Source of the DNA: Acidobacteriota bacterium
Lineage (GTDB): Bacteria; Acidobacteriota; Thermoanaerobaculia; Multivoradales; Multivoraceae
Direction of reading: 5' to 3'
NCBI GenBank assembly: GCA_029263415.1
Contig: JAJCXN010000051.1
Coordinates: 124,001 to 188,000, forward strand
Length of the DNA: 64,000 nucleotides
The notes below the pieces were generated by a model, which ran no database searches, was not told the origin of the DNA, and saw only the letters and a program-made list of their open reading frames with translations. Below, piece after piece: positions 26,117 through 39,609 of this stretch (positions are counted from its first letter, which is position 1; each line of letters begins with the position of its first letter). The translations under genes were made by a program, and so were the position numbers.

Positions 26117-27997
26117 CTAAAAATCAACCAGAGCCTTCTTGGGCAGGGCCACCCTCAAGGCATTCAGCACAGCTGCAACATCAATGACCTCCTGGCAGAT
26201 CGCGCCCGCGACCGGAGCCAAGAATCCTGCAGCTGCAAACAGCATCCCTACGATGCTGAGAGCCATACCCCCAAGAGCACTCTGAAGTGCGATCCGACGC
26301 ATGCGGCGACTGATGTGCAAGAACTCGTCAATCTTCCGTAGCGAGCCGTCGAGAATAACGACGTCCGCCGCCTCGGTCGTGACGTCGCTGTTCTGGCCGA
26401 GCGCAATTCCAACAGTGGCCGCCATCAACGCAGGAGCATCGTTGATGCCGTCACCAACGAACATCGTGCGTTCTGAGGCCGATTCCCTGTTGACAATCTC
26501 CAGCTTCTGTTCGGGACTTTGGCTGGAGTAGACCTCACTGATTCCCACCTGATCAGCAAGGTACTGAACCTCTCCTTCGCGGTCGCCGGACACCAGCAAG
26601 GTCCGTTGGACTTGATGACGCGGCCCAAGGTGCCGGATAAACGACGCCCCGTCCGGACGCGGGGTGTCGCGGAAGCGGTAGGTCGCAGCATACTCACCAT
26701 CCACCAAGACGACACACTCGAGTCCACCTGCTTGCGGCGGAAGCACGTCGCGCAAATCGGGTCGTTGGCGCAGCAGCTTGGTGCGCCCAGTGATCTCCAC
26801 GGAATGGCCCGCAACAGTGCCGGTCAAACCTTGACCTGGAGGCTCGCTGATCGTCGAGACTGGCCATTGAGGGGTGTTCGCCGCCTTCGCTGCGTCGACA
26901 ATGGCGTGAGCCAGAGGGTGCTTCGAAAAGTGCTCGAGACTGGCGGCAAGTGCCAGAACCTCGCCAGATCGCGCCCGATCGACAGCTAATTGCTCAACAA
27001 GCTCTGGTTCTCCGTAAGTGAGTGTTCCAGTCTTGTCGAAGATCAAAGTTCTACAGCGATCAGCATTCTCAAGTGCCGCGGGATCTCGCACGATGATGGC
27101 GCGCCGAGCAGCCAGCGAAATGGCACCGATGATCGCTACCGGGATCGCGATCAAGAGCGGACATGGAGTGGCCACAACCATCACCGCCAGAAAGCGCACG
27201 GGGTCGCCACTCACAACCCAAGCCGCCAGGCCAATCGCAACCGCCAACGGCGTGTACCACGCGCCCAACCCATCGGCCATCCGCCGCATCTGCGGGCGAT
27301 GCTGTTCGGAGACCTCCATGACCGACATGATCTTTGCGTAGCGAGAGTCGACCGCGAGCGTCGTTGCACGGACCAAGAACGCTGACTCACCGTTGACCGA
27401 ACCAGAGAGTACCGACGACCCAGGGGTCTTCGACATCGTGTAGGGCTCGCCGGTGAGGTACGACTCGTCCATCACGCCGTGACCCTCCACAACGACGCCA
27501 TCGACCGGGCAGATCTCGTGAGGAAAGACGTTGACAACGTCGCCTACGCTGAGCTGATCCAACGCAACATCTTCCACCGCAGATCCGACCTTGAGATGGG
27601 CAACCGACGGCATCCGCTGGCTGAGTGCACGCAGCACGGACGAGGCGCTCCCGACCGCGTATGCCTCAAGGGCCTGGCCCCCAGAGAGCATCAAGACCAC
27701 CAAAGAGCCTGCCAAGTACTCGCCCAGGATGACCGACACAACGATCGAGATTCCGGCAAGCAGATCAGCACCGAACTCACCCCTGGCCACGTCTTTCACA
27801 AGACTCCAGACCAAAGGCATGCCCCCGAAAACCAGGGCGAACAAGAGCGGCAGGTCGCGGCTGAGTTCTGAAACGTCGACTGCAAATCGGAGCACCAGGT
27901 ACCCGACAATCATGGCGATCGAGAACAGAGCAATCACCACGTCGCGCGCCTGCCACCAGCCGGTCTCGGTAGGAGTCGCGGACGTCCTTGGTGCCAT
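26117..27997 (-). CDS. P1B-type metal-transporting ATPase with TPCP motif
   Basis: About 626 residues from an ATG at 27997, 19 bases after the oxidase subunit I stop; the frame also opens at 28045 inside that gene. Motifs are TGEP at 182-185 (actuator), TPCP at 277-280 in the metal-site helix, DKTGTLT with phosphorylated D321, and a [13 protein letters not shown] hinge. There is no N-terminal HMA domain. CPC is usual in copper/zinc pumps; TPC is the mark of the poorly known P1B-5 group, whose characterised member moves Ni/Fe and has a C-terminal haemerythrin domain that is absent here. Placement after the oxidase genes suggests metal supply or homeostasis for the terminal oxidase, as CcoI does for cbb3; this is inference. 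Confidence 0.88.
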
Positions 27998-28016
27998 ATT
28001 CAAAGAGTCAACTCGC

Positions 28017-29660
28017 TCAGAACGGAGAGAAGCCCGGGCTGCCAAACCTTTCGAGCGTCAGAAGTTGCCAGATGGGATAAGCGTACGCCAACACGATCAG
28101 AATCACGGCAATGGCGGTCCAGAGGCCCAGGCGGTCAAATCCACCGGCGGTCTCGGGCAGCGGCTCCAACGATCGCGCGAAGCGCGTCGGCACCATGCCC
28201 ACTTTACTGCCACAAAAGAAAGTCGTTCCAAGTACAGCGATGAAGCACAAAGAACTCACAAACAGTACCACTCCGCCGCTGGCCGACATCAGCGTCAGCC
28301 ACCGCCAGGCCTCGGCGGCTTCTGATCCAAAATAGTCAGACGAGTAGACCCTTCTTGGCTGGCCCATGAGCCCAGTGATGTGGCCGGATATCGAGAACAT
28401 CATCATGCCAACGAACCAAAGCAAAGGCTGCGCGAACGCAACTCGAGGCAGCGCTAGTTCGCGGCCGGTCACTCTTGGTAGCAACCAGTAGGAGGCGCCC
28501 ATGAAGGTCAAGGTGACCGCCGTGCCCACGGTTACATGGAAGTGAGCAGGGATCCAGAACGTGTTGTGGACCATGGCATTCATGGCATATGCGGCGTTGA
28601 TCGCTCCACCAAAACCCCCCACCGTGAAACTCAACATTGCGAGCGCCACCGACAAGAAGAATGGGTCGCGCCAGGGCAGCTTCTTGATCCAACCAAAGAC
28701 ACCGGTGCCACCACGTAGCCGCCCACCAACCTCTAACGAGGCGATCACGGTGAAAGCCGTAACCATCGACGGGAACAAGATTGCGTAGGTGGTCACGGTG
28801 TGCACCAGCTTCCAGATACTCGAGATGCCCGGGTCAGTGAACTGGTGATGAAACCCCACCGGTGTCGAGAACAGAATAAACATAACGAAGACAGCTCGCG
28901 CCAGTCGGTCGCTGAACAGTCGCCCTCCCACGATCTCTGGAAGTACCGCGTACCAGAGAACGTAGGCTGGCAGAAGCCAGAAGTAGGTCAGTGGGTGCCC
29001 GAACCACCAAAAGAAGGTGCGAGCGAGAACCGGGTCGATGGTGTCGACCCACCCGAGCGACCACGGGATCAGCTGCCCAAGGACCTCCATCGCCAACCCA
29101 GAAGTAGCAAGGAACCAGATGATCACCGCGGCCACCATGCCGTGCATTGCTAATGGCAGCGGCGAACTGTTTGATCGTTTCCACCTGCGCCAAGACGCAA
29201 TCATCACTCCGCCCCAGATCCACGATCCAATCACCAGGAGCGCAGCGCCAATGTAAAACGCGGGGTGCGCCATCAACGGCGGATAGAACGTGTAAAGCAC
29301 GGTGCTGGTGCCGGACAAGATAGCGAGAGTGGTGATCAGCGTGCCGCCCAAGGCCACCCAGAACCCGGCCCACGCCCAGCGCTCAGACGCAACACCACCA
29401 ACCGTCGTGCGGGCAACAAAGAGGCCAAAACCCATGATGAAGAACGTGGTGAACACCAGCGCCATCAGCACGCCGTGCGCGGTCATCGAGAGGTAGTAGA
29501 CCTTCGGTGAACGAAACACCACATCGATGTCTGCCCGCGAGAGCGCCTGCATGACAGCCATCACAGCTCCGAGGCCAAAGGCAGAAATGGCGACTGCAAA
29601 GTGCGCAATCTCAAGGCGGTTCCCCGATGAGTCCTGGCTCTTGTCAACTAAGCTGCTCAA
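28017..29660 (-). CDS. ba3-like cytochrome c oxidase subunit I
   Basis: About 547 residues of a B-family haem-copper oxygen reductase. A TTG at 29660 is chosen as start: it overlaps the subunit II stop (TTGA) and GAGGAAG lies 5 bases upstream. The frame is open to 29738 but that would overlap subunit II by 82 bases. Numbered from the TTG, ligands are H62 (low-spin haem), CuB H222 with cross-link tyrosine Y226 in [17 protein letters not shown]271/H272 in GFHHQF, and H373/H375 in IPAHFHV. The retained tyrosine argues for O2 reduction rather than NO reduction. About 13 hydrophobic helices are visible. It forms an operon with subunits II and IIa and the ATPase. Confidence 0.94.
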
Positions 29661-30184
29661 GGATCTTCCTCTCGCGCTGAGCGCGCTATGAACCGACCCT
29701 GCATCATGTGATGAGAGAGGCCGCAAAACTCGTTGCACAACACGAGGTACTCGCCGGCGCGAGGAAACGTCACCTCGAACTCGCTGACGTATCCAGGAAT
29801 CACCGTTACGTTGGCGTTGGTGCCAGCGATCTGAAACCCGTGGATGACGTCAGGGCTGGTGATCCGAAAACGGACCGGTTCACCCACAGGGACCACAACC
29901 GTTTCGGGGTCAAATGTGAACATCGCTGCCACCATGACCACCAGCGTCGAACCATCCGGCTGCGGGAAGACGCCTGGACTAGCGAACTCCGATTCCGTCC
30001 GCGCGGTGGCTGGATCGATCGTCTCGACATGGCTAGGCGGATGCACAGCATGCAACACCGAACTCGCGACAATGATTGCAAGAAAGCCCAGGATCAGAGA
30101 ACTCGCGATCCAAAGCCACCAGCGTTCATAGACATCAACCCGCATTGTTCGCGAGACGGGCGAGGTTGACTGAGCGTTACTCAT
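29657..30184 (-). CDS. Cytochrome c oxidase subunit II (CuA)
   Basis: A 175-residue protein from the ATG at 30184, which overlaps the preceding small subunit's stop (ATGA); the frame opens earlier at 30235 but inside that gene. One transmembrane helix (WIASSLILGFLAIIVASSVL) is followed by a cupredoxin domain. The CuA ligands are H115, C150, C154, H158 and M161 in the pattern CNEFCGLSHHMM, all present. Single-helix, short subunit II is typical of ba3-type enzymes. There is no fused cytochrome c domain, so an external cytochrome must donate electrons; the lipoprotein cytochromes nearby are candidates. Confidence 0.95.
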   Translation of the reverse strand: MSNAQSTSPVSRTMRVDVYERWWLWIASSLILGFLAIIVASSVLHAVHPPSHVETIDPATARTESEFASPGVFPQPDGSTLVVMVAAMFTFDPETVVVPVGEPVRFRITSPDVIHGFQIAGTNANVTVIPGYVSEFEVTFPRAGEYLVLCNEFCGLSHHMMQGRFIARSAREEDP

Positions 30185-30375
30185 AGACCGGTCGCCCCAC
30201 GGGGCAGAAACAGCCCGAAGTAAAGAGCTAACCATCCCAGCGCAAATAGCGCACCAAACACCAGAACAATCGCAAGAGTGCCAACTGGATGCGCTGGTAG
30301 AGCTAAGAGCTCCTCGTCTAAGAGTTCTTGTCTCGCCTCGCGCTCCGGCGAAGACGCATTCGGATCGCTACTCAT
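30181..30375 (-). CDS. Cytochrome c oxidase subunit IIa-like protein
   Basis: A 64-residue protein with a charged N-terminal arm and one transmembrane helix (PVGTLAIVLVFGALFALGW, then LALYFGLFLPRG). The GTLAI...LFALGWLALYFG pattern is that of subunit IIa of B-family oxidases, which supplies the helix missing from subunit II. It is the first gene of the oxidase operon and overlaps subunit II by 4 bases. Confidence 0.85.
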   Translation of the reverse strand: MSSDPNASSPEREARQELLDEELLALPAHPVGTLAIVLVFGALFALGWLALYFGLFLPRGATGL

Positions 30376-30552: not shown

Positions 30553-31119
30553 TTGGAAGACAACAATCTCCCCACTAGGCGTGGATTCATGATCGCCGCT
30601 TGCGCATCCTTCGCAGCTGCCTACGGGACCTTTGCTGCGTTCATGGCTCGCTTTCTCTACCCGGCTGAAACTGCGGTTGGCAACTGGACCTATGTGTCCA
30701 CGGTCGCCCGAATCCCGCAGGACGACGCCCTCGTGTTCCGAACTCCGGGTGGTGCCATCGTCAACATTGCACGCAGCCTGGATCAGCCTGAGCGCTTGAT
30801 GGCGCTCTCGAGTACTTGCCCCCACTTGGGCTGCCAGGTGCATTGGGAGGGCCACAACCAGCGCTTCTTCTGCCCTTGCCACAACGGAATTTTTGACCCA
30901 ACGGGCAAGGCCATCGCAGGACCACCGGCCGACGCCGGCCAGAGCCTTCTTCAGTATCCGTTGAAAGAGGACGGCGGTTTACTCTTCATCGACGTTCCCA
31001 ACGAGGAGCTGGCCATGGGCCAAGGCGAGATCCTGGACGCCCCGTCTCCGGCCGCCTGCAAGCTGCCACAAGTGCCACGTGTCCGAAGCAGCACGGCAAG
31101 CTCGCGCGTATCCGTCTGA
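30553..31119 (+). CDS. Rieske iron-sulfur protein of a bc/b6f-type complex
   Basis: A 188-residue protein. The start is a TTG at 30553 with GGAGG seven bases upstream; no ATG fits. The twin-arginine signal-anchor TRRGFMIAACASF leads into one hydrophobic helix. The [2Fe-2S] ligands are C89 and H91 in CPHLGC and C107 and H110 in CPCHNG; the two extra cysteines C94 and C109 form the usual disulfide. The stop overlaps the next ATG as TGATG, so it is translationally coupled to cytochrome b. It transfers electrons from quinol to a cytochrome c on the outer face of the membrane. Confidence 0.95.
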   Translation: MEDNNLPTRRGFMIAACASFAAAYGTFAAFMARFLYPAETAVGNWTYVSTVARIPQDDALVFRTPGGAIVNIARSLDQPERLMALSSTCPHLGCQVHWEGHNQRFFCPCHNGIFDPTGKAIAGPPADAGQSLLQYPLKEDGGLLFIDVPNEELAMGQGEILDAPSPAACKLPQVPRVRSSTASSRVSV

Positions 31120-32195
31120 TGCCTGCCGGACCAATCGCAATGATCGGTAGTTGGCTGCAGGAGCGACTACCAATCCAACTGGACGAGCTCAAAGAGCTCA
31201 CTAACGAGCCCGTCCCTAACCACCTCAAACGGTGGTGGTTCGCGCTCGGAGGCACACCCGCTTACCTCTTTGTTATCCAGATCATCACCGGGCTACTGCT
31301 CGCCGTCTACTACCGTCCATCAGCAGAGAGTGCCTACGAATCGGTTCGCTACATCACCGAGTCCGCGACGTTCGGTTGGTACCTCAGAGGCGTGCATCGC
31401 TGGGCAGCGACGTTGATGGTCGCAGCGGTGATCTTGCATCAGATGCGGGTCTACTTCACAGGCGCCTATCGCAAGCCACGAGAACTGAACTGGATGGTGG
31501 GGATGTGCATGTTGATCTGCACCCTCACACTCGGCTTCACCGGTTACAGCTTGGTCTACGAGCAGTTGTCCTACTGGGGAGCGACCGTCGGAGCCAACAT
31601 CGCAGGTGGCGTGCCCGTTGTCGGCGACTTCATCCGTCGGCTCATGCTCGGTGGAGACGCCTACAACGTGAACACGCTGCCGCGATTCTTCGTGATTCAC
31701 GCAGCGGTTCTGCCGATGACCATGATTTTTCTGATCGTGGTCCACATTGGAATCATTCGACTTCAAGGCGTCACCGAATATGAGTTCGAGGACGACAAGG
31801 ACGACGGTCCCGAGGAGAAGGCAAAGACCTTCAACTTCTTCCCCGACCACCTGCTCACCGAACTGTCCTTGGGACTGTCGCTCATGGTCTTGTTGTCGTT
31901 CTTGGCAACCGTGTTCCCGCCGCTACTCGGACCGCCAGCCGACCCGCTGACCACACCTGAAGTGATCAAGCCTGAGTGGTTCTTCTATGTCGCCTTCCGT
32001 TGGCTGAAGCTGTTCTCCGGAACCGCCGCGATCCTGTCCATGGGATTCGTGGTGTTCGTCATGTTTACTTGGCCATTCATCGACGCATCGATCCGCAAGC
32101 GCACGCGCTTCACTGAGGCAAGTGTGTGGATCGGCATCTTCGGTGTCTTGGCAATCGTTGGACTCACCATCTGGGAGGCAGTGGTAGCCCACTAG
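31119..32195 (+). CDS. Cytochrome b with b6f-like features, fused subunit IV part
   Basis: A 358-residue integral membrane protein that joins a cytochrome b6-like four-helix part to a subunit IV-like part. Haem ligands are H93 and H107 in one helix pair (13 residues between) and H194 and H209 (14 between); the 14-residue spacing is that of b6-type proteins. The quinol-site motif is PEWF at 285-288 in place of PEWY. A charged linker (EFEDDKDDGPEEK) joins the halves. No cytochrome c1 or f gene follows. Instead a membrane-anchored octahaem cytochrome is encoded 67 bases downstream, which may take the place of c1. Confidence 0.94.
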   Translation: MPAGPIAMIGSWLQERLPIQLDELKELTNEPVPNHLKRWWFALGGTPAYLFVIQIITGLLLAVYYRPSAESAYESVRYITESATFGWYLRGVHRWAATLMVAAVILHQMRVYFTGAYRKPRELNWMVGMCMLICTLTLGFTGYSLVYEQLSYWGATVGANIAGGVPVVGDFIRRLMLGGDAYNVNTLPRFFVIHAAVLPMTMIFLIVVHIGIIRLQGVTEYEFEDDKDDGPEEKAKTFNFFPDHLLTELSLGLSLMVLLSFLATVFPPLLGPPADPLTTPEVIKPEWFFYVAFRWLKLFSGTAAILSMGFVVFVMFTWPFIDASIRKRTRFTEASVWIGIFGVLAIVGLTIWEAVVAH

Positions 32196-32262
32196 TCCCA
32201 CCCCCACTCCCGTTGGATTCGCCCGCGACTCTCGCAGCGAGAACCAAGAAGGAAGCATCTCA

Positions 32263-33927
32263 ATGAACCTGAATCAGAAGTACGTCGTCATCTCCGTTCT
32301 AGCTGGAGTGTTCCTCGCATCACTGGTCCTGGTTCAGTGGATGGAGGTCGTTCGGCGCGCGGAGGAAGCCGGCATCTCCCAGCCAAGAGTTTCTGTGCCC
32401 GACTCGTCCGCAGACTGTGTCGACTGCCACAGTCAAACCACTCCTGGCATCGCGCAACACTGGGAAGACAGTCGCCATGCCGAGCGCGGCGTCTCTTGCT
32501 TCGACTGCCACACAGCAGATGTCAAAGACGCTGACAGCTTCGACCACTACGGCACGACCATCGCGACCGTGGTCACGCCGCGCGACTGTGCCGAGTGCCA
32601 TCCAGCGGTGGCCGAAGAGTTCGAGAAGAGTCACCATGCCGCCGCGGGCAACATCCTCGCCTCGCTGGACAACTTTCTTGCCGAAACAGTCGAGGGTGCA
32701 CGGGTGCCCTTCGAACCGCATTCGCCCACGCCTGGTCGCGCTCTCGGGATGGTCAACGGTGGCGCCAGCGCGGCCTCTGGGTGCCAGCAATGCCACGGCT
32801 CAAAGGTCGCCTTGCTCGCAACTGACGGCGGACGCATCAACGTCGACGACCTTCAACCAGACGAAAACGGCATTCCGACCAATCTAGAAGCCCTCTCTAG
32901 GATCAGCCGCGACGGCGCCGCTCGCCCGACGCTCGATCCTCAAACCTGGCCCAACACCGGGATTGGAAGACTGAATCTCGATGGCTCGCGCGGCTCCTGT
33001 TCGGCCTGCCATAGTCGACACGACTTCTCGCCGCGACGCGCGCGTCAACCAGAGAACTGCGGCAAGTGTCACCTCGGCCCCGATCATCCTCAAAAGGAGA
33101 TCTACGAGGAATCGAAGCACGGCGTTGCTTTTCGAGACCTACGCGAAAGCATGAATCTCGACTCAGAGAGCTGGGTCTTGGGTGAGGACTACTCGCAGGC
33201 GCCTACTTGTGCCACGTGCCATATGTCTGGACACAGCCGCAACGGGGGCCGGATCACACACGATCCTGGCGAGCGGATCTCGTGGACCAATCGTCCGCCA
33301 GTAAGCCTGGTCATGGACACTGACGCCGACGGCAACTTAGTCAAAGAGCACGACCCACTAGAACGACGGCGTCTCACAGTCGACAGCGCCGCGATGAAAC
33401 GCGGTCGCATGCGAGAGGTCTGTTTGCACTGCCATGCGCCGTCCTATGTCGACAACTTCTACGTTCAGTACGACGACCTGATAGTGCTCTTCAACGAAAA
33501 GTTCGCGAAGCCTGGCCTGAGCCTGATCGCCGCCTTGCGGGCCAACGACCTGCTCACCCCGACAGAGTTCGACGAGGAGATTGAATGGACCTGGTTCCTT
33601 CTCTGGCACCACGAGGGTCGGCGGGCCAGGCACGGTGCCTCGATGATGGCGCCGGACTACACCCACTGGCACGGCATGTTCGAAGTCGCGGACCGCTTCT
33701 ACATGGAACTGATTCCGCAAGTGCGTGAACGGATCGCCGAAGCCAGGCATGACGGTGAACGGAACGCTGCAAAGGCGGTAGAGGACGTGCTCAACGCGTT
33801 GCTGGCCAGGCCCGAACATCAGTGGTTCGAAGAAGGAGCCACCGACCAGTCGCAAGCGATCCGAGACGCCATGAAGGAACGCTACGGCGACGCAGGTCCG
33901 TCTCGGCGCCCGGGCGCGCCAAACTGA
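32263..33927 (+). CDS. Octahaem cytochrome c of the hydroxylamine oxidoreductase family
   Basis: A 554-residue protein with eight CxxCH haem sites at 52, 79, 109, 174, 246, 266, 316 and 387. Segment 244-290 (CSACHSRHDFSPRRARQPEN, then CGKCHLGPDHPQKEIYEESK) and segment 387-403 (CLHCHAPSYVDNFYVQY) are highly typical of HAO. In HAO a tyrosine cross-links to haem 4 to make P460; here Y466 in MAPDYTHWHG sits at the matching place, near Tyr467 of the Nitrosomonas enzyme, so an oxidative rather than nitrite-reducing type is possible. The N-terminus is an uncleaved anchor helix (about 7-25), unlike soluble HAO. AAGGAAG precedes the ATG. It shares an operon with the Rieske and cytochrome b genes. Its substrate (hydroxylamine, NO, hydrazine-like, or none) is unknown. 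Confidence 0.9.
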   Translation: MNLNQKYVVISVLAGVFLASLVLVQWMEVVRRAEEAGISQPRVSVPDSSADCVDCHSQTTPGIAQHWEDSRHAERGVSCFDCHTADVKDADSFDHYGTTIATVVTPRDCAECHPAVAEEFEKSHHAAAGNILASLDNFLAETVEGARVPFEPHSPTPGRALGMVNGGASAASGCQQCHGSKVALLATDGGRINVDDLQPDENGIPTNLEALSRISRDGAARPTLDPQTWPNTGIGRLNLDGSRGSCSACHSRHDFSPRRARQPENCGKCHLGPDHPQKEIYEESKHGVAFRDLRESMNLDSESWVLGEDYSQAPTCATCHMSGHSRNGGRITHDPGERISWTNRPPVSLVMDTDADGNLVKEHDPLERRRLTVDSAAMKRGRMREVCLHCHAPSYVDNFYVQYDDLIVLFNEKFAKPGLSLIAALRANDLLTPTEFDEEIEWTWFLLWHHEGRRARHGASMMAPDYTHWHGMFEVADRFYMELIPQVRERIAEARHDGERNAAKAVEDVLNALLARPEHQWFEEGATDQSQAIRDAMKERYGDAGPSRRPGAPN

Positions 33928-33983
33928 GAACCGAACTGGCGAATGAAGATGAAGAGGGCTAGTACCTCCACGGGCCGACGCCA

Positions 33984-35216
33984 ATGACAACTGCTCTTGC
34001 ACTACTCCTGGCGGTGGTGTCGTTGCTGTCGCAGCAACAGAACAGCACCGAACCACCCTTGGAATCGTCGGCGCCTCCGGCCTACGAGCTGTCGTTTGGA
34101 CTGCGCTATCGGCTCGAGTCCGTTGACGACGACTCGTTGGCTGCGGTGCCGCTCACGGGAAAACTCGATGCCGCCCTAGCCTCCACGTTGAGGAGTCAGC
34201 TGCGTCTGGACACACGCAGCTGGCACGGGCTTTCGTTTCACATCGCAGTCGAGGACGTTAGGACTCTCGGCAATGACAACTACAACAACGCAGGAGCTGG
34301 CTCGCTCCGCAACGGGCAGCCCGGCCGCGCCGTTGTGGCGGACCCAGCCAACACCGAGATCAGCCAGGGCTTTGTGGTGTTTGAGCCAAACGATCGGGTC
34401 AGCCTCTCGGCCGGACGACAGGAACTCTCGTTCGATCAAGAACGTTTTATCGGCCCAGTGGGTTGGCGGCAGAACCATCAAGAGTTCGACGCCCTGCATC
34501 TCGCTGTCAAACCGACCCAGCGCCTGACGGTACGACTCGGCTTCATCGACCGCGTGCACACCATCACCGGCGCAGAGCAAGCGGCAGGCCATTCGCTGCT
34601 GAACGTGCTGCTTGCTCTGGAGCACTTCAAGATCGGTGGTTACGGCTACTGGCTCGAGTATGACTCTGCGACCCTCAGTCGCTTGTCGAGCGGCACGCTT
34701 GGGCTCCGCTCGTCGGGCACCTTCGCCGAAGGAGCAGCCTCGTTCACGATCGAGATCGCCGAGCAGCAAGACAACGGCAACCATCCAAACGACTTTTCGC
34801 TCGGCTATCGAGGTGCAACCCTTGGTTGGAGTCCACACAATGCCGAGGGCCTCAAGCTCGAGGTAGGAGGAGAGATCCTAGAGGGCGACGGCACCAACGC
34901 GTTCAGGACGCCACTTGCCACCCTGCACAAGTTCAATGGTCTTGCTGATCGATTCTTGGTGACCCCGGCAACGGGTCTAAAAGACCTGTTTGCGACGCTT
35001 TCCTATCGGTGCCTCCAATGGTCGGGCCAACTCACCTATCACCGCTTCGAGCCCGAGCACGGGAGTGGGGCTATGTATGGTGACGAGTGGGACGCCGTCA
35101 TTTCCTACAGACCGACCAAGCGCTTACAGTTCGCGCTCAAGACAGCGCTCTATCAGGCCGACGGCTTCTCGAGCGACGGCACCAAGGCGATGGTCTGGAC
35201 GGCGTGGTCGTTCTAG
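33984..35216 (+). CDS. Outer-membrane porin, alginate-export (AlgE)-like
   Basis: A 410-residue protein with a short signal peptide (TALALLLAVVSLLS) and a beta-barrel pattern of alternating hydrophobic residues ending in a terminal phenylalanine (VWTAWSF). Segments such as YELSFGLRYRLESV, EISQGFVVFEPNDRVSLSAG and RQELSFDQERFIGPVGWRQN match the alginate-export porin family, whose members in non-alginate bacteria are often small-solute porins placed beside respiratory cytochromes. It lies 56 bases after the octahaem gene, presumably in the same transcript, and could admit a small nitrogen compound to the periplasm; that is inference. Confidence 0.82.
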   Translation: MTTALALLLAVVSLLSQQQNSTEPPLESSAPPAYELSFGLRYRLESVDDDSLAAVPLTGKLDAALASTLRSQLRLDTRSWHGLSFHIAVEDVRTLGNDNYNNAGAGSLRNGQPGRAVVADPANTEISQGFVVFEPNDRVSLSAGRQELSFDQERFIGPVGWRQNHQEFDALHLAVKPTQRLTVRLGFIDRVHTITGAEQAAGHSLLNVLLALEHFKIGGYGYWLEYDSATLSRLSSGTLGLRSSGTFAEGAASFTIEIAEQQDNGNHPNDFSLGYRGATLGWSPHNAEGLKLEVGGEILEGDGTNAFRTPLATLHKFNGLADRFLVTPATGLKDLFATLSYRCLQWSGQLTYHRFEPEHGSGAMYGDEWDAVISYRPTKRLQFALKTALYQADGFSSDGTKAMVWTAWSF

Positions 35217-37499: not shown

Positions 37500-38111
37500 T
37501 CACCCCTCCAGCCGCAATGAGAGCCGCACCAGATCTGCGAGCGAATCGGCCTCCATCTTCTGCATGACCTGCGAGCGGTGAAGCTCCACAGTGCGCTGCG
37601 AGATATCGAGTCGGTTGGACACGACCTTGTTCGCGCAACCTTGAACCACCAGATCGAACACCTCTCGCTCCCGAGGGGTCAAGCGCTCGAACCGGCTTTC
37701 CACCTCGTGGCGTTGCAGCTCTGACGCTCGCTGACGGTCAGCAACCTTCAACGCCGCATGGATGCGGTCAAGAAGATCTTGCTGTCGAAACGGTTTGGTC
37801 AGAAAGTCCTGAGCGCCGCTCTTCATTGCCGTGACCGCCATTTCGATATCGCCGTGTCCGGTGATAAAGACCACCGGCATAGCGCAGCCGCGCTCAAGGA
37901 GGACCTGCTGAAGCTCCAGTCCACTCATACCGGGCATTCGAATGTCGAGCACAATGCAGCCTTGCCACTCGTCTGAATAGTCTTCGAGAAAGGCCCCGGC
38001 GTCCGCGAAGCTCCGGGTCACAAGATCGACCGAGCCGCACAGCACTTCGAGTGAGTCGCGGAACGCATCGTCGTCATCGACTACATGCACGGTTGTCAGT
38101 TGCTCAGCCAT
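37500..38111 (-). CDS. FixJ/NarL-type response regulator
   Basis: A 203-residue two-domain regulator. Receiver residues are the acidic DDDD cluster near 12-15, phosphorylated D56 in VLDIRMPGMSG, and K106 in FLTKPFR. The C-terminal LuxR-type helix-turn-helix reads RLTPREREVFDLVVQGCANK and VVSNRLDISQRTVELHRSQV, as in FixJ. The ATG at 38111 has AAGGAGG upstream and overlaps the end of the histidine kinase gene by 8 bases. The kinase is its cognate partner, so it probably activates genes when oxygen is low, with the surrounding respiratory genes as likely targets. Confidence 0.93.
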   Translation of the reverse strand: MAEQLTTVHVVDDDDAFRDSLEVLCGSVDLVTRSFADAGAFLEDYSDEWQGCIVLDIRMPGMSGLELQQVLLERGCAMPVVFITGHGDIEMAVTAMKSGAQDFLTKPFRQQDLLDRIHAALKVADRQRASELQRHEVESRFERLTPREREVFDLVVQGCANKVVSNRLDISQRTVELHRSQVMQKMEADSLADLVRLSLRLEG

Positions 38112-39609
38112 CGGTGCCTCCTTCAGCCCCAGGAAGTAGGAACGAGAAGGTCGCTCCGCGTCCACCAGCATTGTTCTCGAACCACAAACGTCCGCCGTGC
38201 TTCTCTACGATCGTTCGGCAGACCGCCAACCCGATGCCCATGCCATCCGTCTTGGAAGTAAAGAAGGGGTCGGTCAGACGCTCAGCGATGCTCGCTGAAA
38301 TACCAGTTCCCCGGTCCTCGACTGCGATCACCAGCCCGGCCTCCGCCGACCGTGCGCTGACTCGAATCGCTGCCTCCGGATGCTGTGTCATTGAGTCGAC
38401 CGCGTTCTGGAGAAGATTGAGCAGGACCTGCTGGATTTGCACTCGATCGACGAACACCAGGGGTAGCTCAGCTTCGTATTCCTTCTCCACTCGGACCACC
38501 AGCAACTCAAGTTGAGACCGATAAAGATGCAGCGTGTCGTTCACAATTTCGCTAGCTGAGAGTGCCTCTCGAGCTGGGCTTTGCCCTCCAGCCAGCGATC
38601 GAAGCCGACGGATAACGTCGGCAGCGCGGTCGGCCTGTTGCCCGATCTGTTTGAAGATGCGCTCCAACTCTTCGGCTGGCACCTGATCCTTTCGAACCAA
38701 GATCTGACCCGCCTCAGCATAGTTGGCAATCGCCCCCATCGGTTGGTTGACTTCATGGGCGATTCCCGCAGTCATCGCCGTGAGTGCACTAATTCGCTGA
38801 TAGTGCGCAAGCTCTTCACGAATCTCCCTCGCCTCCTTCTCCGCCTCTAGTTGAGCCGTCCTGTCGACCAGCTGGACCACGATCCCATGATCGTCGTTGT
38901 GAGCGTGGCGAGGAAATGACGCGAGATAGAGGTCGCCGCTCTTCCGGTGGCCGTCGACTTCGAAGGCGAGCAGCGCCAGCACACATACCGTTGGCGCCTT
39001 CGCGGCTTCATCAAGAGCAGCACCGAGACTTTGCACTTGAGTGTCTGCAGACAAGTAGGAGCCGAGTTCGACGTCAGCTGAGCCATCACAGGCCAGGAAG
39101 GAGTTCAACGCCTCGTTTGCAACCAACAACCGTCCCTTCCCATCGACCAAGCCGGTGGGCACGACAGCGCTATCCATCATCTGTCGCAACTCGGCCTCTT
39201 GCTCTTGCAATGTTTGCAACAGTGCGTGGCGCTCAGTCAGGTCCCGGACGATTCCGACGTACAAACGCTCGCCAGAGAAGCTCCCTTCGCCAACCGACAG
39301 GTCCATCGGAAAGACGACACCGTCGCTGCGCCGTCCCTCCACCTGTCGGCCAACTCCAATGATCTTCGACTCGCCGGTCTCCCGGTACCGCCGCAGGTAT
39401 CCATCGTGCTCGCGGCGGTAGTTCTCCGGCATCAGCATCTTGATGTTGCGTCCGAGGATCTCAGGTAGCTCGTAGCCGAACACCCTGGCACAGGCCGAGT
39501 TTGCCTGGCGCACGGTTCCCACCTCGTCGATGACGATGATCGCGTCCGCAGCTGCTTCTAGCAGGACCGAGAAGAGTGCAGCTTCTTCAGCCGCTAAAGG
39601 TTGGTTCAC
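38104..39609 (-). CDS. FixL-type oxygen-sensing histidine kinase
   Basis: A 501-residue soluble sensor kinase with two PAS domains and no transmembrane helix. The first PAS (about 8-128) has the FixL haem signature: the proximal histidine H68 in NYRREHDGYLRRY and the distal arginine R88 in IIGVGRQVEG, then FPMDLSVGEGSF and YVGIVRDLTER. A second PAS spans about 135-255. The H-box is AGIAHEVNQPMGAIANYAEA with H285, and the ATP-binding domain has the N, G1 (VEDRGTGIS) and G2 (TDGMGIGLAVCRTI) boxes. FixL binds O2 at this histidine and is active when unliganded. It forms an operon with the FixJ-type gene and has an inverted repeat 80-110 bases upstream. Confidence 0.93.
   Translation of the reverse strand: MNQPLAAEEAALFSVLLEAAADAIIVIDEVGTVRQANSACARVFGYELPEILGRNIKMLMPENYRREHDGYLRRYRETGESKIIGVGRQVEGRRSDGVVFPMDLSVGEGSFSGERLYVGIVRDLTERHALLQTLQEQEAELRQMMDSAVVPTGLVDGKGRLLVANEALNSFLACDGSADVELGSYLSADTQVQSLGAALDEAAKAPTVCVLALLAFEVDGHRKSGDLYLASFPRHAHNDDHGIVVQLVDRTAQLEAEKEAREIREELAHYQRISALTAMTAGIAHEVNQPMGAIANYAEAGQILVRKDQVPAEELERIFKQIGQQADRAADVIRRLRSLAGGQSPAREALSASEIVNDTLHLYRSQLELLVVRVEKEYEAELPLVFVDRVQIQQVLLNLLQNAVDSMTQHPEAAIRVSARSAEAGLVIAVEDRGTGISASIAERLTDPFFTSKTDGMGIGLAVCRTIVEKHGGRLWFENNAGGRGATFSFLLPGAEGGTDG

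Follow-up and report, generated by a model that had tools for sequence, protein, structure and literature searches.

A conserved operon linking a Rieske/cytochrome b core to an anchored octahaem cytochrome of the HAO superfamily: a candidate menaquinol:nitrite oxidoreductase

Two systems have been described in which a Rieske protein and a cytochrome b are encoded with an octahaem cytochrome of the hydroxylamine oxidoreductase (HAO) type. In the anammox bacterium Kuenenia stuttgartiensis, all subunits of the Rieske/cytochrome b complex R/b-3 (kuste4569-4574) were reported to co-migrate, and nitrite reduction was proposed (PMC12954380); the activity of its octahaem protein kuste4574 is unproven (PMC12954380, PMC12485887). 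In Caldithrix abyssi, genes for a Rieske protein, a cytochrome b and an epsilonHao lie in a row beside nap genes (Cabys_2564-2556), and quinol-driven nitrate/nitrite reduction has been proposed for the cluster (PMC5317091). Here we characterize a four-gene operon for a Rieske protein, a cytochrome b, an octahaem cytochrome c (OCC) and a porin-like protein at positions 30553-35216 of the window, by which we mean the whole 64,000-nucleotide stretch analysed (positions 124,001 to 188,000 of contig JAJCXN010000051.1, assembly GCA_029263415.1, Acidobacteriota bacterium). A previous reading of the bare letters, hereafter the sequence-only reading, had suggested that it would be an undescribed energy module; given the arrangements published for anammox bacteria (PMC12954380) and Caldithrix (PMC5317091), this wording goes too far. 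Our literature search, mostly outside subscription journals, returned precedents only. We favour, with a probability of about 0.5, the reading that the operon encodes a proton-translocating, membrane-bound menaquinol:nitrite (or other N-oxide) oxidoreductase, in which the OCC is both the substitute for cytochrome c1/f and the terminal reductase.

The operon and its conservation

The four genes of the operon are as follows.

30553..31119, plus strand: Rieske [2Fe-2S] protein; TTG start behind GGAGG, twin-arginine translocation (Tat)-like TRRGFM motif, PF00355 at 43 bits
31119..32195, plus strand: cytochrome b, fused b6 and subunit IV; PF00033 at 172 bits and PF00032 (Cytochrome_B, Cytochrom_B_C)
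32263..33927, plus strand: octahaem cytochrome c (OCC) of the HAO superfamily with an N-terminal membrane anchor; PF13447, 8 CXXCH, Asp274-His275
33984..35216, plus strand: outer-membrane porin-like protein of 410 residues; weak match to PF13372

The Rieske and cytochrome b open reading frames (ORFs) have one base in common (TGATG); 67 bases separate cytochrome b from the OCC gene, and 56 bases the OCC gene from the porin-like ORF. The OCC scored 70 bits with PF13447 (Multi-haem_cyto), for which the cut-off is 21.9. It has eight CXXCH motifs, no more and no fewer, and its only hydrophobic segment spans residues 8-26. The porin-like ORF scored 32 bits with PF13372 (Alginate_exp), little above the cut-off of 25.2. 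The genes, spacings, overlap, eight haems and N-terminal anchor were thus re-derived as first read. So was the lack of a cytochrome c1 or f gene within the operon, where the OCC gene occupies that place. Promoter and terminator scans of the operon performed no better than on shuffled sequence.

A search of genome contigs with the OCC gave at least 532 confirmed relatives, and conservation was counted in the best 80, which are 63-74% identical to it. By depositor labels these 80 span at least seven phyla (Planctomycetota, Acidobacteriota, Gemmatimonadota, Deltaproteobacteria/Myxococcota, Omnitrophota, Krumholzibacteriota, Chlamydiae and others). The upstream test was limited to the 68 loci with at least 2.5 kb of upstream sequence, and in 66 of them Rieske and cytochrome b genes lay immediately upstream of the OCC gene on the same strand. 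The retention of this order indicates that the gene trio is not a chance association. Cytochrome b proved strongly conserved as well, at a median identity of 69%, and the Rieske protein less so, at 45%. A locus titled Candidatus Kuenenia stuttgartiensis (L078, CAMDPK010000213.1, genome G199) also has the trio; its label looks wrong, since PF13447 matched only once in this genome of 7.4 Mb, whereas anammox genomes have many HAO paralogues.

Queries for NapA, porins and oxidases were used to count other neighbours. A NapA nitrate reductase gene lay directly downstream of the OCC gene, on the same strand, in 25 of the 80 loci, so that nitrite would arise beside the OCC. The NapA of Acidobacteria bacterium Mor1 (L009), the sole example tested, scored above both NCBI NapA equivalog cut-offs, and in most NapA-bearing loci a protein with four CXXCH motifs (tetrahaem) was encoded next. 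The occurrence of hao together with napAB has been reported in a set of metagenome-assembled genomes (MAGs) (PMC10732223), and several of our loci come from similarly OFTM-numbered MAGs. A porin of the window kind was found near the OCC gene, up- or downstream, in about a dozen loci; it is a recurrent, not a constant, partner.

The Rieske protein carries the cluster motif CPHLGC...CPCHNGIF, in which the potential-raising Ser and Tyr are replaced by Gly and Phe, as in all 75 aligned Rieske sequences. In the yeast protein, loss of this Ser and Tyr costs about 130 and 65 mV, roughly additively (PMC12954380). The window-type Rieske is therefore predicted to be of the low-potential, menaquinol type. 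This is only a prediction, because the Kuenenia Rieske protein Kustd1480 has a high potential despite having no Tyr (PMC12954380).

Cytochrome b has its haem ligands at H93/H107/H194/H209, with b6f-like spacing, and a PEWF Qo motif (PEW[F/W/Y] across relatives). In 75 of 76 sequences the protein ends in His (H358 in the window), whereas the positions immediately preceding are variable; in the second clade of relatives the protein of L106 ends in His and that of L101 does not. Homology with subunit IV would place this C-terminus on the periplasmic side, the same side as the OCC; there the terminal His could, speculatively, dock onto an OCC haem or ligate it. A limited literature search found no published report of a conserved C-terminal His in cytochrome b.

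An uncleaved N-terminal anchor was common to 31 of the 32 aligned OCCs; the exception, L059, is also without Rieske and cytochrome b genes. The second clade shows both states: a similar anchor is retained in L101, L106 and L108, where the cytochrome b gene immediately precedes the OCC gene, and apparent signal peptides are present in L230, L232 and L234, which gave no Rieske/cytochrome b match. Most sampled relatives without Rieske and cytochrome b genes likewise have a signal peptide, or no such anchor. The link is not absolute, because two more distant relatives without these genes, L225 and L226, carry a hydrophobic stretch at the N-terminus, possibly an anchor. With the conserved trio, this distribution supports the sequence-only suggestion that the octahaem protein replaces c1/f: it is very probably a subunit of the quinol complex.

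The octahaem protein within the HAO superfamily

A profile search of solved structures with the OCC returned 4qo5 (E 2e-52; IhOCC, the octahaem cytochrome of Ignicoccus hospitalis), 6h5l (7e-31), HAO (1e-20) and HDH (9e-18). These matches bear out the HAO-family sequence blocks noticed earlier. The OCC has the features of the superfamily: eight CXXCH motifs, PF13447 above cut-off and an Asp-His pair after the sixth haem motif. This pair, D274-H275, aligned with the active-site residues D267-H268 of HAO and was invariant in 32 of 32 relatives.

The crosslink residue of HAO, Tyr467 (its position counted in the printed alignment), aligned through L087 with OCC H468; sister clades have Gln or Trp at that place. 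Two residues away stands an invariant Tyr466, aligned with HAO Trp465; its motif, PDY466, resembles a crosslink site, but the alignment through L087 points to H468 as the counterpart of HAO Tyr467. From sequence, a P460 crosslink is not predicted for the OCC.

The position of the OCC was assessed in a quick IQ-TREE of 92 rows with several long branches, built without Nitrosomonas (ammonia-oxidiser) HAO, epsilonHAO, IhOCC and kuste4574 sequences. Stand-ins were chosen by gene context and similarity (L221 for kuste4574; L211, L212 and L215 for HAOr), and the anammox identities derive from HDH matches and gene context. The window OCC fell in a clade of 29 rows with a Shimodaira-Hasegawa-like approximate likelihood-ratio (SH-aLRT) support of 100. 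A group of 16 rows stood apart from it; this contains HDH and further HAO-type proteins of anammox bacteria, together with the HAOr type (which has a dihaem partner) and the L221 OCC. The comparison with HAO and HDH lineages that had been proposed from the sequence could thus be made in part, and put the OCC in a clade of its own. Membership of the HDH/HAO group was rejected on this tree and on the HDH model, with which the OCC scored 66 bits against a cut-off of 900.

Orphan OCC relatives (L203, L205, L206, L208, L209) occur in genomes with anammox-kind HDH/HAO-type genes, and had no Rieske or cytochrome b match within about 6-8 kb. In another anammox octahaem lineage (L210, L213, L214) the gene lies directly 3' of a large P-type ATPase-like gene.

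In sister clades the OCC has other partners. Its gene adjoins an NrfH-type tetrahaem gene in L223, and stands beside a gene for a NapC-domain pentahaem protein in L227, L233 and L235 (by Pfam) and in L237 and L239 (judged by comparable length and number of haems). These last five form a parallel Acidobacteriota module of OCC and NapC-domain pentahaem protein, with a porin in some, and a related porin accompanies the OCC and NrfH/NapC-type genes in several sister-clade loci. NapC/NrfH-family partners were seen only in sister clades; at the window operon Rieske and cytochrome b take their place. The pairing with NrfH-/NapC-type quinol dehydrogenases argues that this type of OCC accepts quinol electrons, and, together with the Rieske/cytochrome b linkage, that it has been combined with different quinol-oxidising modules.

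Proposed electron path and its alternatives

In the favoured reading, menaquinol would be oxidised by a Q-cycle at cytochrome b and a low-potential Rieske protein. From the Rieske head the electron would go straight to an OCC haem, the anchored OCC taking the place of cytochrome c1/f. The OCC would perform the terminal reduction, with nitrite as its likeliest substrate (the product, NO or ammonium, being undecided), at the haem beside Asp274-His275, and the substrate may enter through the porin. We infer the physical complex, the direction of electron flow, the menaquinol donor and the substrate from the trio, the anchor, the Asp-His pair, the Rieske substitutions, the NapA and NapC/NrfH links in relatives and the published precedents. 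Given that the trio recurs in many phyla, in about a third of the loci with NapA beside it, this is probably a widespread, if little-studied, form of respiration on nitrite or a similar compound.

A bolder proposal is offered tentatively, with the odds against it: that the low-potential Rieske/cytochrome b core is wired straight to an anchored HAO-type reductase, that the C-terminal His of cytochrome b touches or ligates a haem, that nitrite reduction is thereby proton-translocating, and that such complexes make up a widespread, unrecognised class. If this were true, many 'hao' genes in non-nitrifying Planctomycetota, Acidobacteriota and Gemmatimonadota would encode such complexes. If the favoured reading holds, several large and mostly uncultured phyla would conserve energy at Rieske/cytochrome b when they respire nitrite or a related N-oxide, where the NrfH/NapC route is non-electrogenic; octahaem proteins would also have been joined to Rieske/cytochrome b cores at least twice. 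'hao' calls are sometimes taken as nitrification or anammox potential, and can be OCCs of the window clade. In the groundwater MAG nzgw515 (L069/G200) the sole HAO-family match is a Rieske/cytochrome b-linked OCC of this clade; PMC8862662 discusses nzgw515 as a clade II anammox organism and ascribes a hydroxylamine oxidoreductase gene to it.

The host assembly (6.9 Mb, 60 contigs, 99.2% complete) holds one PF00033 cytochrome b and one PF13447 protein, both in the window, and three COX1 genes. As to a cytochrome c1 encoded elsewhere, there is no second PF00033 locus in the genome, PF02167 not having been searched genome-wide. On contig C39 an Alternative Complex III-like row (pentahaem, 1077-aa, NrfD-type, further subunits, monohaem) is followed by a caa3-type oxidase; this order was read by eye except for the NrfD and COX1 families. 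With this separate set, the window complex would be unneeded as an ordinary complex III. The same genome has a second set of molybdopterin-type, FeS and NrfD-type proteins (L137:8681-13605) besides the Alternative Complex III-like one. No NorB was recognised among the three COX1 loci, a judgement based only on context and, in the case of the window gene, on the HPLTY motif.

Divergent from the operon, a heavy-metal P-type ATPase and the subunits of a ba3-like oxidase are encoded on the minus strand (26117-30235). The oxidase genes are neighbours, not members of the complex.

29657..30235, minus strand: CuA-type subunit II of the ba3-like (B-family) oxidase, a possible functional neighbour
28017..29738, minus strand: subunit I of the ba3-like oxidase, with the Tyr of its active-site motif HPLTY retained

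A FixJ-like regulator and a FixL-like PAS kinase are encoded at 37500-39609, also on the minus strand. The ba3-like oxidase, the heavy-metal P-type ATPase and the FixLJ-like neighbours suggest low-oxygen use.

Several observations weigh against a nitrite-reducing complex. NapA was missing from two thirds of the best 80 loci. The host genome has no NapA ortholog (best match 29%) and no NrfA or NirK above cut-off, so that any nitrite would need an external source or another enzyme to make it. Electrons could in reality end at the adjacent ba3-like oxidase. We know of no activity for any member of the OCC clade. Finally, a haem-less AlphaFold2 model from the 32-row alignment was poor, with a mean predicted local distance difference test (pLDDT) score of 65, and its active-site geometry was left unused; in Foldseek, 6h5l was its sole match at E under 0.001, with a template modelling (TM) score of 0.3.

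The alternative that survives best is that the OCC is a mere wire, a c1/f substitute that stores and passes Rieske electrons to periplasmic acceptors and reduces nothing itself. The acceptors would be NapA, via the tetrahaem protein, where present (the two genes follow in 25 of 80 loci), and otherwise a soluble carrier and the ba3-like oxidase, whose genes are adjacent in the window; similar oxidase genes follow the NapA-bearing operon of L003. The genome's sole Rieske/cytochrome b complex, its operon without c1/f, is consistent with this, and extreme conservation could mirror docking surfaces. A pure relay, however, would have no need of an invariant Asp-His pair, and eight haems are many for one; sister-clade OCCs pair with NrfH/NapC-type dehydrogenases as a reductase would, and the genome already has Alternative Complex III and a caa3-type oxidase. 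We regard the wire as possible, at well under even odds.

The sequence-only reading had also raised the oxidation of a nitrogen compound, and in this form the OCC would oxidise hydroxylamine, NO or hydrazine and pass electrons through Rieske/cytochrome b into the quinone pool. It could call on membership of the HAO superfamily, the shared Asp-His pair and the invariant Tyr466 so close to the aligned crosslink position. Yet the OCC lies outside the anammox HAO/HDH group, the residue at the Tyr467 position is His, Gln or Trp, relatives are linked to NapA and to NapC/NrfH-type quinol dehydrogenases, the Rieske protein is predicted to be of low potential, and Rieske/cytochrome b run backwards would be uphill. 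The genome has a single HAO-family gene. A wider look for nitrogen genes, suggested with that idea, covered NirK, with no match above cut-off, and AMO, with no match either; the AMO control was silent too, so that absence of amo is not established. We consider an oxidative role improbable, roughly a long shot.

Less probable still is a porin-cytochrome conduit, with electrons flowing from the OCC through the porin to extracellular acceptors. The porin adjoins the OCC gene here and other octahaem genes elsewhere; at 410 residues, however, the barrel falls far short of the size of MtrB-type conduits, its gene has no outer-surface multihaem gene beside it, and most loci are without the porin. The idea that the module is of the anammox R/b-3 type and bifurcates electrons to NAD(P) shares the Rieske, cytochrome b and HAO-like octahaem theme (PMC12954380) but is very nearly dismissed: the operon is without NAD(P) oxidoreductase and hexahaem genes, its cytochrome b is fused and not split, its OCC is in another clade than L221, the stand-in for kuste4574, and its Rieske potential markers are opposite to those of Kuste4569 (PMC12954380).

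Comparison with described systems

With cytochromes b6f and bc1 the window system shares the Rieske and cytochrome b core, the four His ligands and the PEW motif. It differs in having no cytochrome f or c1 in the operon, a fused cytochrome b and, throughout the cytochrome b alignment, no Cys at the b6 haem-cn position; a canonical b6f was rejected on these tested features. NrfHA and HaoCA-type systems similarly lead from a quinol dehydrogenase to a multihaem nitrite reductase, and sister OCCs stand with NrfH/NapC-type genes, whereas the quinol dehydrogenase of the window is a Rieske/cytochrome b complex able to conserve energy.

Among solved structures, IhOCC is the closest relative of the OCC, and has Val for the active-site His of the Asp-His pair; we know of no Rieske/cytochrome b link for it. 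A title cited in PMC8840924 describes IhOCC as membrane-associated. Kustc0458 (HAOr, 6h5l), which reduces nitrite to NO, is also octahaem with an Asp-His pair and, according to the title of Ferousi 2021 as cited in PMC12485887, is without the Tyr crosslink; it differs in belonging to another clade, in being soluble and in having a dihaem partner. In Campylobacter, an electrogenic Nap driven through Qcr has been described (PMC6195509).

The sequence-only comparison with anammox stands in so far as R/b-3 and the window share a Rieske protein, a cytochrome b and an HAO-like octahaem protein. R/b-3 has in addition an NAD(P) oxidoreductase and an extra hexahaem protein, together with a split cytochrome b/SUIV, a high-potential Rieske protein (+303 mV) and an OCC of another clade. 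The R/b-3-like cluster of the anammox-type genome L221 likewise encodes an NAD(P) oxidoreductase-like protein, a hexahaem protein, a split cytochrome b and the other-clade OCC; membership of R/b-3 was rejected on all tested distinguishing features.

The Caldithrix cluster, known here by description and not by sequence, has the same row of Rieske, cytochrome b and octahaem HAO-type genes, beside nap genes, and the window system may be of its kind. Its products were treated mainly as separate enzymes with a NapM mediator, direct transfer also being considered, and wide conservation was not reported (PMC5317091). We conclude that the union of Rieske/cytochrome b with an HAO-like octahaem protein is of an already known kind, and that the window system is a variant of it that differs from R/b-3 in every distinguishing feature tested.

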